A stretch of 64,000 nucleotides of DNA. Origin: Pirellulales bacterium. GTDB taxonomy: Bacteria > Planctomycetota > Planctomycetia > Pirellulales > PALSA-1355. A model generated the notes under the pieces. That model worked only from the letters and a program-made list of their open reading frames with translations, searched no databases and had not been told where the DNA came from. Location: the NCBI GenBank assembly GCA_022844125.1, contig JALHMI010000012.1:186001-250000 (forward strand), in the 5' to 3' direction. Position 1 is the stretch's first letter. Each line of letters begins with the position of its first letter. Positions 46,894-60,949 of the stretch are shown here, one piece after another. The translations under genes were made by a program, and so were the position numbers.

Positions 46894-46981
46894 TGTTCAT
46901 CGACATGCTATTGCGTAAGCGGGATCTGAATTAGTAGCAACACAGCAAGGCTGGCAGCAAGGTGAAATCATTGGGAAGACG

Positions 46982-47008
46982 GCTGGACAAAGCCAGACAG
47001 TGGCACCC
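46982..47008. repeat. solo arm of the AGACAGTGGCACCC repeat
   Basis: GCTGGACAAAGCCAGACAGT continuing GGCACCC. It matches the right arm of the inverted repeat at 59236-59383, with one extra A. No partner arm was seen nearby. Confidence 0.7.
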
Positions 47009-57873: not shown

Positions 57874-59145
57874 ATGAACCCCATCCCGCGCGGCATGACC
57901 CGCCGACACTTCCTCGAGCACCTCACCGCCGCCTCGGCCCTGGCGCTGCCGGCTATCTCGCTTACCAGCACGCTGCGGGCTAACGCGGCCGACCTGAAGC
58001 GCCGGCACAAGTCCGCGATCCTGCTGTGGATGAACGGCGGACCGTCGACGATCGACATCTGGGATCTCAAGCCCGAGGCTCCGACCGGGGGCGAGTTCAA
58101 GCCGATCAGCACCAGCAGTGATGTGCAGATTTGCGAGCATCTGCCGCTCGTGGCCCAGCAGATGAAGCATCTCTCGATTGTGCGTTCGATGAGCACGCGC
58201 GAAGCCGATCACGATCGCGGCCGCTACTACATGCACACCGGTTACGTGCCCAATCCAAACGTCGAGCATCCCGGCTACGGCTCGGTGATCAGCTACATGC
58301 TGGCCGAGCAGACGGCCGCACGCAAGCTCGAGATCCCGCCGTTCGTGGCCGTGGGCGGAGGCAGCGTCGGCCCGGGCTTCCTGGGCATGACGCACGCGCC
58401 GTTCGTGGTGAACTCCAATGGCCGCGTGCGCAACCTCGATATGAAAGTCGAAAGCCAGCGGCTGTACGAGCGTTTACAAATGCTCGCCTCGCTGGAGAAG
58501 AACTTCATCAAGCAGGACCGCGGGCAGTTGGCCGAGGATCATGCCGAGGTGCTCGACAAGACGGTGAACCTGCTCACCAGCAAACAGATGGAGGCCTTCA
58601 AGGTCGACCGCGAACCCGAGCAGATGCGCGAGCGCTACGGCGACTCGCAGTTCGGCCGCGGCTGCTTGATGGCGCGCCGCTTGATTCAAGAGGGCGTGGC
58701 CTTCGTCGAGGTCGACTTTGGCGGCTGGGACACGCATCAGAACAACTTCACACAACTGCGGAACAACAAGCTGCCCGAGATGGACAAGGCGATGAGCGCG
58801 CTGGTCAGCGATCTGGCCGAGCGCGGCCTGCTCGCAGACACGGTTGTCCTCTGGATGGGCGAGTTCGGCCGCACACCGCGCGTCAACGCCACGGCCGGCC
58901 GCGATCACTGGGCTCGCAGTTGGAGCGTCGTGATGGGGGGCGGCGGAATTAAGCCAGGCGTCGCCGTCGGCCAGACCACGGCCGATGGCGCAGACGTCGA
59001 CAGCGAGCCATACAGCTCGCAGGACGTCATGGCCACGGTCTGCAGGGCCCTGGGCATCTCGCTGGAAACGACGTTCACCAGCAAGAACGGTCGCCCGATG
59101 AAGATCGCCAACAGCGGCCGCGTAATCGACGAACTGGTGGGATGA
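57874..59145 (+). CDS. DUF1501 domain protein
   Basis: 423 residues. Tat-like TRRHFLEHLTAASALALPAI; core ILLWMNGGPSTIDIWDLKPE, SREADHDRGRYYMHTGYVPN-type block, FGGWDTHQNNFTQL, LWMGEFGRTPRVNATAGRDH and GGGGIKPGVAVGQTT. It is the partner of the preceding DUF1549-DUF1553 gene; shorter than the other two DUF1501 proteins, without the CPNC insertion. Function unknown. Confidence 0.92.
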   Translation: MNPIPRGMTRRHFLEHLTAASALALPAISLTSTLRANAADLKRRHKSAILLWMNGGPSTIDIWDLKPEAPTGGEFKPISTSSDVQICEHLPLVAQQMKHLSIVRSMSTREADHDRGRYYMHTGYVPNPNVEHPGYGSVISYMLAEQTAARKLEIPPFVAVGGGSVGPGFLGMTHAPFVVNSNGRVRNLDMKVESQRLYERLQMLASLEKNFIKQDRGQLAEDHAEVLDKTVNLLTSKQMEAFKVDREPEQMRERYGDSQFGRGCLMARRLIQEGVAFVEVDFGGWDTHQNNFTQLRNNKLPEMDKAMSALVSDLAERGLLADTVVLWMGEFGRTPRVNATAGRDHWARSWSVVMGGGGIKPGVAVGQTTADGADVDSEPYSSQDVMATVCRALGISLETTFTSKNGRPMKIANSGRVIDELVG

Positions 59146-59174
59146 CGCTTCGCGAATCGTGCCACATGCGGTAG

Positions 59175-59193
59175 CCCCCGGCTTTGCCGGGGG
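59175..59193 (+). repeat. CCCCCGGCTTTGCCGGGGG hairpin repeat
   Basis: Perfect 8-bp stem CCCCCGGC/GCCGGGGG with a TTT loop, 30 nt after the DUF1501 stop codon. It matches copies at 46873 and 45958. It could serve as a terminator for the operon, but no T-tract follows. Confidence 0.7.
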
Positions 59194-59235
59194 GGTGAAT
59201 CACGGGAGCGGTTGGACTCATCGGCAGCGTCCGCC

Positions 59236-59383
59236 GGGTGCCACTTTCTGGCTTGCCCAGCAGTGTCTTCCCTGGTCTTTGCCTTGCTCTCGAGATCCTC
59301 AGAGAAAACACCAGTCTCGAAACGGACACCGCAAGGCAAGAATCGAAGAAAAACACTGCTGGACAAGCCAGACAGTGGCACCC
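59236..59383. repeat. 148-bp MITE-like inverted repeat
   Basis: Left arm GGGTGCCACTTTCTGGCTTG (to 59266) and right arm CTGGACAAGCCAGACAGTGG (within 59353-59383) are 31 bp with two mismatches, separated by about 86 nt with a nested TGCCTTGC/GCAAGGCA. A solo arm is at 46982. The element has no coding capacity. Confidence 0.85.
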
Positions 59384-59527
59384 AAGTGGTTGCTTAGCTT
59401 CTTATTCTCCCCCGCGAATCTCCGCAATTCCGCCCACCACTGCAACCGGCCCTAGCATCCGTTGGTACTAGCTTTCATACTACGCCTGTACCGCTTTCCA
59501 ACCGCACAAGCTCCCACCAGGTTTGCC

Positions 59528-60949
59528 ATGCTCCGTCTTGCTTCGTGTCTCGCGTTGTTCGTTGCTCTTGTCGCCGCCCCCAAGCTTGTATTGGCCGAGT
59601 TGACCGTCGGCTATGGCCAGGCCGATGTCACGCCCGACCCGGCCCAGAAGCCGGTCTGGATTGCCGGCTACGGCCAGAACCGCAAGGCCGAGGGCGTCCA
59701 CGATCCGCTCTATGCCCGGGCAATCGTGATCTCCGACGGCACGAAGAAGGTGGCGATCGCCGCGGTCGACGTGGTCGGTTTGCAGTACCCCACCGTGCAG
59801 GAAATCCGCAGGCGGCTCGAGGCCGATAAGTTCGACTACGTGCTCGTGACCAGCACGCACAACCACGAAGGGCCCGACACCGTGGGCATCTGGGGGCCGA
59901 CACCCTTCAAGAGCGGCATCGACTTTGAGTGGCTCGACTCGCTGGTGGCCAAAACGGCCGAAGCGATTCAAGCGGCCGACAAGAGCCGGGTGCCGGTCAC
60001 CGCGGCCTATGGCACCGCCGCCGACGGAACGCTGCTCCGCGACAGCCGCGAGCCGTACGTCAAGGACGACGTCATCCGCACGATTCGTTTCGACGGCACG
60101 GATTCGAAGAAGCCCCACTGCCTGCTGGTGAACTGGAGCAACCATCCCGAGGCCCTGGCCAGCGAGAACAAGCAGATCACGGCCGACTTCCCGTACTACA
60201 CGATTCGCGACCTGGAGGCGAAGTACGGCTGTCCCGTGATCTACGTCACCGGCGCCGTCGGCGGGCTGATGGCGCCGCCGCGCGACATTTACACCAAGGC
60301 CGATGGTTCGCCGCTTAACGATGGCAACTTTGAGTACTGCGAACGACTTGGCAGCGACACCGCCAAACTCGCCATGAAGGCGATTGACTCGTCAAGCCCC
60401 GTCAAGCTCGAGCCGATCGTCGTCTCGGCCAAGCCGATCACCGTGCCGCTCGAAAATCGTCTCTATCGCATGGCCCAGATGATGGGCATCCTGAAACGCG
60501 AAGGGTTGCTATGGACCGGCAACAGCGAAGAGTTCGGCCGGCCCTATGAGAAAACAGACGTCAAGAAGAACCTGCTCCCCGCGGGCGTCACCGAAGTGGG
60601 TTACGTCGGGCTCGGCGAAGTGCACCTGGTCGGCATCCCGGGCGAAATTTATCCCGAGCTGGTCTATGGCAAGGTGCAGGACCCGGTCGATCCAGGCGCG
60701 GACTATCCCGATGCTCCGGTCGAGCCCTCGGTGCTGGAGATCCTGCCGGGCAAAAACTTCATCCTGGCCGGGCTGGCAAACGACGAGCTGGGCTACATCA
60801 TTCCCAAGCGGCAATGGGACGAGAAGGCTCCCTTCTGCTACGGCCGCGAGAAAAGCCAGTACGGCGAAGAGAATAGCTGCGGCCCGCTGATGGCGCCGCT
60901 GCTGATGGAAGCGCTGCAGAAGCGCGTGGCCGAAGCGACCGGGAAGTAA
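59528..60949 (+). CDS. neutral/alkaline ceramidase-like secreted protein
   Basis: 473 residues. A signal peptide (LASCLALFVALVAAPKLVLA) and a domain of the neutral/alkaline non-lysosomal ceramidase type: VGYGQADVTPDPAQKPVWIA, VDVVGLQYPTVQEIRRRLE, TSTHNHEGPDTVGIWG (zinc-type histidines) and WSNHPEALASENKQITADFP. Members hydrolyse ceramide N-acyl bonds, but planctomycete homologues have diverse neighbours and unknown substrates. It follows the DUF1549-DUF1501 operon with a repeat between. Confidence 0.8.
   Translation: MLRLASCLALFVALVAAPKLVLAELTVGYGQADVTPDPAQKPVWIAGYGQNRKAEGVHDPLYARAIVISDGTKKVAIAAVDVVGLQYPTVQEIRRRLEADKFDYVLVTSTHNHEGPDTVGIWGPTPFKSGIDFEWLDSLVAKTAEAIQAADKSRVPVTAAYGTAADGTLLRDSREPYVKDDVIRTIRFDGTDSKKPHCLLVNWSNHPEALASENKQITADFPYYTIRDLEAKYGCPVIYVTGAVGGLMAPPRDIYTKADGSPLNDGNFEYCERLGSDTAKLAMKAIDSSSPVKLEPIVVSAKPITVPLENRLYRMAQMMGILKREGLLWTGNSEEFGRPYEKTDVKKNLLPAGVTEVGYVGLGEVHLVGIPGEIYPELVYGKVQDPVDPGADYPDAPVEPSVLEILPGKNFILAGLANDELGYIIPKRQWDEKAPFCYGREKSQYGEENSCGPLMAPLLMEALQKRVAEATGK

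Follow-up and report, generated by a model that had tools for sequence, protein, structure and literature searches.

A probable RAYT-mobilised, REPIN-type repeat family in a planctomycete of the order Pirellulales

The inverted repeat and its surroundings

The window examined here is a 64-kb stretch of DNA from a bacterium of the order Pirellulales, in which an inverted repeat of 148 bp occupies positions 59236-59383. According to Pfam, it lies downstream of a DUF1549/DUF1553-DUF1501 gene pair and upstream of a ceramidase-like gene, and a gene call based on codon usage leaves it (locus L098) outside genes, which bears out a preliminary description of a non-coding repeat situated after a DUF1549-DUF1501 operon and before another gene. 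These genes, and the closest protein matches, which are in planctomycete assemblies, point to a planctomycete as the source. The two arms (59236-59269 and 59350-59383) are 34 nt long, 91% complementary and separated by 80 nt; when the arms are counted as 31 nt, the sequence also matches the earlier figures of 31-bp arms with two mismatches and an 86-nt core. Folded as a single strand, positions 59230-59392 reach -47.9 kcal/mol, compared to -21.9 kcal/mol (sd 3.0) for shuffled sequences (z = -8.7), and none of 200 shuffles was as good.

Both arms are REP-like, in that a short foot is followed by a hairpin. The left arm (59236..59267, plus strand) carries the foot GGGTGC on its outer side and an imperfect stem, and scores 48.4 bits with model R2, whereas the right arm (59352..59383, minus strand) is inverted, again with the foot outward, and scores 55 bits. 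The structure proposed by RNAalifold (model R1) abandoned the foot-hairpin arrangement seen in the sequence, and R2, which has a hand-written structure, was used instead. The spacer (59268..59351, no strand assigned), as read from the sequence, is composed of two inner boxes and a variable middle; the left box (59278-59287) is TTTGCCTTGC, one base off CTTGCCTTGC, and the right box (59331-59340) is GCAAGGCAAG. The lone arm previously placed at 46982-47008 is real: R2 locates a decayed solo arm of the same family at 46976..47008 on the minus strand (41.7 bits), with a 1-nt insertion in the loop, and found no match other than this and the two arms in the 64-kb window at E <= 1. Folded singly, the right arm (-8.9 kcal/mol, z = -2.8) is better than its shuffles, whereas the left arm (z = -0.4) and the solo arm (z = -0.2) are no better than theirs.

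The possibility had been raised that the arms are merely part of a terminator pair. Intrinsic terminators were looked for as a G+C-rich stem with a T-run, and positions 59000-59600 contain no such site. In Rfam, the region 58900-59700 has no match above the gathering score, the two matches, to a plant miRNA model and to a CRISPR repeat model, falling far below theirs. A second REP-like repeat, composed of a foot and CCCCCGGCTTTGCCGGGGG, is present in the window at 59171-59193, approximately 40 bp upstream of the inverted repeat. It occurs at 53 places in the genome at two or fewer mismatches (the reversed pattern at none), and its foot is TAG or CAG in 24 of 26 hits and GTAG in 8 of 26 (window and 20 fetched stretches, at most three mismatches). 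None was detected at the 10 fetched Y1 loci, also at three or fewer mismatches.

Copies, arm anatomy and insertion sites

The genome (6.44 Mb in 27 contigs) contains at least 67 arms detected by a covariance model of the arm at E <= 0.001. At most 126 candidates per genome were scored with this model, under stricter filters, and 40 of 50 candidates in the DNA search for copies, so that copy numbers are lower bounds. Of the 40 places from the DNA search, which were fetched, 23 hold a doublet (144-204 bp) and 15 hold solo arms, the last two being a weak match (L072) and a transposase locus (L101). The genome-wide search for the arm that had been suggested thus yields many further copies, against the earlier reservation that there might be none.

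We define a doublet as two inverted arms that enclose a short core and have their feet on the outside. The arm itself begins with GGGTGC, a foot of six bases, after which CACTGCTGG and CCAGCAGTG enclose a loop in a 9-bp hairpin, many copies having one extra stem base. Alignment A1 covers all but one (L105) of 65 arms. Across these 64, the foot has the consensus GGGTGC, every base being present in at least 90% of the arms; the canonical REP tetranucleotide GTAG or GTGG 5' of the hairpin is thus not the consensus. Standard pairs account for 96.5% of pair cells, but compensatory changes were not observed in this alignment, so the pair count alone is no proof of a selected hairpin. Inside the arms lies the inverted inner box, CTTGCCTTGC/GCAAGGCAAG; across the alignment of 23 doublets the boxes are conserved and the middle is variable.

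Doublets agree with one another at a mean of 0.70, whereas their 100-bp flanks agree at a mean of 0.51 and at most 0.60 (253 pairs). At each of foot positions 1-6, the commonest base has a frequency of 93-100%, as against no more than 48% at the 20 positions outside, so that agreement sets in abruptly with the foot's first base (0.93). This boundary, together with the dissimilar flanks, indicates that the repeat is a discrete unit residing at unrelated places. Even the best pair of doublets is just 0.83 identical (flanks 0.54 and 0.52), and, judged by such divergence, the copies show no sign of recent movement.

An alternative is that the moving unit is a solo arm or half-element, a doublet being two of them that landed close together. 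Solo arms are indeed no more decayed than those in doublets: median scores are 55.2 bits for 16 solo and 52.85 bits for 46 paired arms (p = 0.34; 62 arms, L101 and L072 left out). Chance pairing would not yield doublets that are all foot-out (23 of 23, an order that is part of their definition), many of 144-149 bp, with paired inner boxes in common, and apart from these the 40 places contain just one close pair, L084, which has both arms in the same orientation and is counted with the solo places. We therefore consider it quite improbable that single arms are the unit.

A target-site duplication of 2-6 nt, which had been proposed as something to look for, was found at none of the 23 doublets. 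Instead, the sites share a base preference: a pyrimidine stands at -1 before the foot in 58 of 64 arms and at both ends in 18 of 23 doublets, and two pyrimidines precede the foot in 46 of 64 arms compared to 23% nearby (64 of 65 arms were counted, the one at L101:1380, which a tandem array precedes, being left out). The flanks on either side of a doublet show no raised complementarity to each other (32/138, p = 0.99).

With respect to genes, 38 of the 40 places were counted (the weak match L072 and the RAYT locus L101 left out). While the window is predicted to be 80% coding, 35 of the 38 are not covered over more than 70% of their length by a predicted gene; predicted genes overlap the remaining three (L071, L076 and L077), each a single arm, perhaps owing to start-site errors. 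By hand count, at least 22 of 38 follow the stop codon of a predicted gene at a distance of approximately 30 bp or less, and where both neighbours were predicted the contexts are 5 convergent, 1 divergent and 21 tandem. Such placement would suit a repeat that serves the host at the ends of genes, whether as a 3' mRNA stabiliser, a bidirectional terminator or a supercoiling site, which is now under selection and whose movement is over. That the copies are old, that the arms are conserved while the cores vary, and that solo arms are conserved like paired ones would fit as well. On the other side, the window site has no T-run terminator, and no REP is present at the orthologous DUF1501 loci of 3 of 3 genomes of the same family (G001-G003). 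The DUF1549-DUF1501 pair is conserved in these three genomes, but the gene after it differs from that in the window, and none of them therefore provides a strict empty site. Nor was a REP found in G002 or G003 at the locus of the ceramidase gene; the nearest match of the ceramidase-like protein in the genome contigs searched is 63% identical and not syntenic. We regard a host role as rather unlikely on balance, and note that it would be compatible with an origin of the repeats as REPINs.

A RAYT gene between the same repeats

Ten loci in the genome match the Pfam Y1_Tnp family. The candidate RAYT is a 198-aa ORF on contig 14 (G000:C14:119064-119657, fetched as L101), the only one of the ten Y1 loci covered by the scan with NF047646 (REP-associated tyrosine transposase), with which it scores 82.3 bits against a cut-off of 80; its score with PF01797 is 25.5 bits (cut-off 23). 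HUH, WQ and Y..NP motifs and a WSS tail motif are present in this protein and its relatives, a likeness to TnpA-REP as described in PMC6006769. By the motifs given there, the TnpA-REP subclasses offer no clean fit: NHVH/WQ/YIHLNP of the L101 protein resembles subclass 2.1, reported there to be without REPs, but most relatives have EHVH. No sequence match to solved structures was obtained for the L101 protein at E <= 0.001.

One REP arm lies upstream of the RAYT gene (L101:1380-1411, forward) and two lie downstream (L101:2261-2292 and 2386-2417, both reverse), foot-out, and each of the three carries the inner box CTTGCCTTGC on its inner side. Autonomous relatives, which the preliminary description had proposed to seek, have a candidate in this locus bounded by REPs and inner boxes like those of the element, which itself resembles both ends of the locus joined minus the gene. 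The element's REPs were absent at the other nine Y1 loci within up to 1.5 kb on each side (L063 and L065 end early at contig ends); for one of these nine, on contig 6, two solo arms are present at a distance of 2.2 kb. The loop of the L101 REPs is GGCCCAGCCC, whereas most copies have GGCTTGYCC, and it follows that the L101 protein may not be the spreader of these copies, a role that another RAYT, lost or unsampled, may have had. A separate feature of the locus, at L101:1255-1391, is a head-to-tail array in which a 15-base unit, GCGTAGGGTGCCACT, is repeated about nine times; the unit comprises the foot and the start of the stem, and the array reaches the upstream REP.

The locus also bears on whether the repeat is a classical MITE, that is, an internally deleted DDE transposon that ends in long terminal inverted repeats and relies on a DDE transposase for its movement. 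Long inverted ends, a length of approximately 145 bp and many copies at unrelated sites would all suit such an element. They are outweighed by the absence of target-site duplications (0 of 23 doublets), by arms that can fold a hairpin of their own (96.5% of pair cells, no compensatory changes) and by the same ends flanking a Y1/HUH gene, and a classical MITE is very improbable. The search for a DDE transposase covered one family, ISL3 (PF01610), and gave no match. The term "miniature inverted-repeat element" given to the repeat at first holds insofar as it is dispersed and non-autonomous, with full and solo copies, but not in the sense of a classical MITE, considering the lack of duplications and the REP-like arms shared with the flanks of a HUH/Y1 RAYT gene.

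REPs and RAYTs in related genomes and the proposed mechanism

The distribution of REPs and RAYTs was compared in 57 genomes: the organism's own, three of the same family and 53 of the same order. A RAYT match is present in 32 of 57, and the REP was found by the arm model (E <= 0.001) in 33 and not found in 24; the genome designated G023 has at least 127 REP matches. At least 10 REPs occur in 10 of the 13 genomes with a RAYT match at E <= 1e-50 compared to 6 of the 44 others (Fisher p = 3.6e-5, kinship not corrected), or in 9 of 12 and 6 of 44 without the own genome (p = 1.0e-4, likewise uncorrected). Over eight combinations of two RAYT thresholds, two REP thresholds and inclusion or exclusion of the own genome, p ranges from 3.6e-5 to 0.007. 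The association has exceptions in both directions: 7 of the 25 genomes without a RAYT match have the REP (3 of them at least 10 copies), and in G051 and G024 a RAYT is present and no REP was found. In the same-family genome G003, at least 48 REPs were observed and no RAYT match, and at least one doublet is much shorter, with two arms within 80 bp at C217:5364-5443.

One RAYT-like locus per genome was examined, for 30 of the 32 genomes in which a RAYT match is present. Foot-bearing hairpins, foot-out, are present on both sides in 9 of 30 loci (8 of 29 without the own genome) compared to 1 of 30 in a swapped control; the foot rule was set after the hairpins had been viewed and was not blind, and the swapped case, L133, is also among the nine correct ones. 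At 14 of 30 loci, no foot-bearing hairpin was found on either side within 500 bp. At more distant loci (L123, L125 and L129-L131), the stem differs and the foot is still GGGTGC or GGGTGG, while at L132 the hairpins come after GTAG instead. Around a distant RAYT homologue at L126:1272-2497 we also observed several clustered copies of another hairpin repeat (CACGGCTT...AAGCCGTG).

Taken as a whole, the evidence is best explained, and in our view very likely so, by a REPIN-type doublet mobilised by a RAYT. The window element comprises two inverted REPs with foot and hairpin, although its left arm folds poorly alone; it belongs to a dispersed, mainly extragenic population (23 doublets among 40 places, 35 of 38 not covered by a predicted gene); and the same REP, with a loop differing from most copies, stands beside a RAYT gene. 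It would then be a small repeat that is unable to move by itself and is probably copied by a transposase acting on single-stranded DNA. In the model of a REP doublet moved by a RAYT on single-stranded DNA, as presented in PMC3116915, PMC6006769 and PMC8266576, the following steps are the likely ones here. When the DNA is single-stranded, as in replication, both hairpins would be bound by a RAYT of the HUH/Y1 type like that of L101, if such an enzyme is active at present; it would cleave beside the foot; and the unit would be copied or moved to another intergenic site with pyrimidines before the foot, leaving no target-site duplication.

The element belongs to a known kind, the REPIN, found here in a little-studied group of bacteria. 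According to PMC3116915, REPINs of Pseudomonas fluorescens SBW25 are alike in having two inverted REPs, a less conserved spacer, a hairpin-forming sequence, extragenic and repeated occurrence, and REPs beside a RAYT gene; unlike them, the present elements have an extra inner box and fewer copies. The foot GGGTGC also differs from the GTAG/GTGG feet of SBW25 REPs given in PMC2817692. Solo arms here are no more decayed than paired ones, in contrast to P. fluorescens; in PMC3116915, the better conservation of doublet arms serves as evidence for the REPIN as a unit and not as its definition. The present elements depart from a textbook REPIN in that the foot differs from GTAG, solo arms match paired ones in conservation, and the loop at the RAYT locus is unlike that of most copies. 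There is likeness as well to TIRYT/TIRtron elements, in which, according to PMC3733652, a Y1 transposase gene lies between long inverted repeats that recur as dimers, some TIRYT repeats being self-complementary; the common motif reported there is GGGGWSAS, as opposed to GGGTGC with a hairpin here. The same paper describes another planctomycete, R. baltica, as containing many repeat-flanked genes for tyrosine transposases together with several REP families, so the present REP family may have been seen before.

We tentatively suggest that these repeats could represent a distinct REP/RAYT lineage in this planctomycete order, a proposal that is quite possible but short of an even chance. It would be characterized by a constant GGGTGC foot, a stem changing with the RAYT (CACTGCTGG, CACTGGCGG, CATGCCCACG, CATGCTCACG), a two-part end (REP and inner box) in the RAYT locus and doublets, and insertion where pyrimidines precede the feet, and would form a tag class beside the published GTAG, CGTC and CnGA feet. 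In any case, an inverted repeat that had no explanation can now be assigned to a population for which there is a probable enzyme. The findings also suggest that a GTAG foot is not a requirement for RAYTs to work. A constant foot combined with changing stems and matching RAYTs constitutes a natural series in which one may ask which part of the REP is read by the enzyme, and it is this constancy of the foot beside differing stems at distant loci that we judge most worth following.
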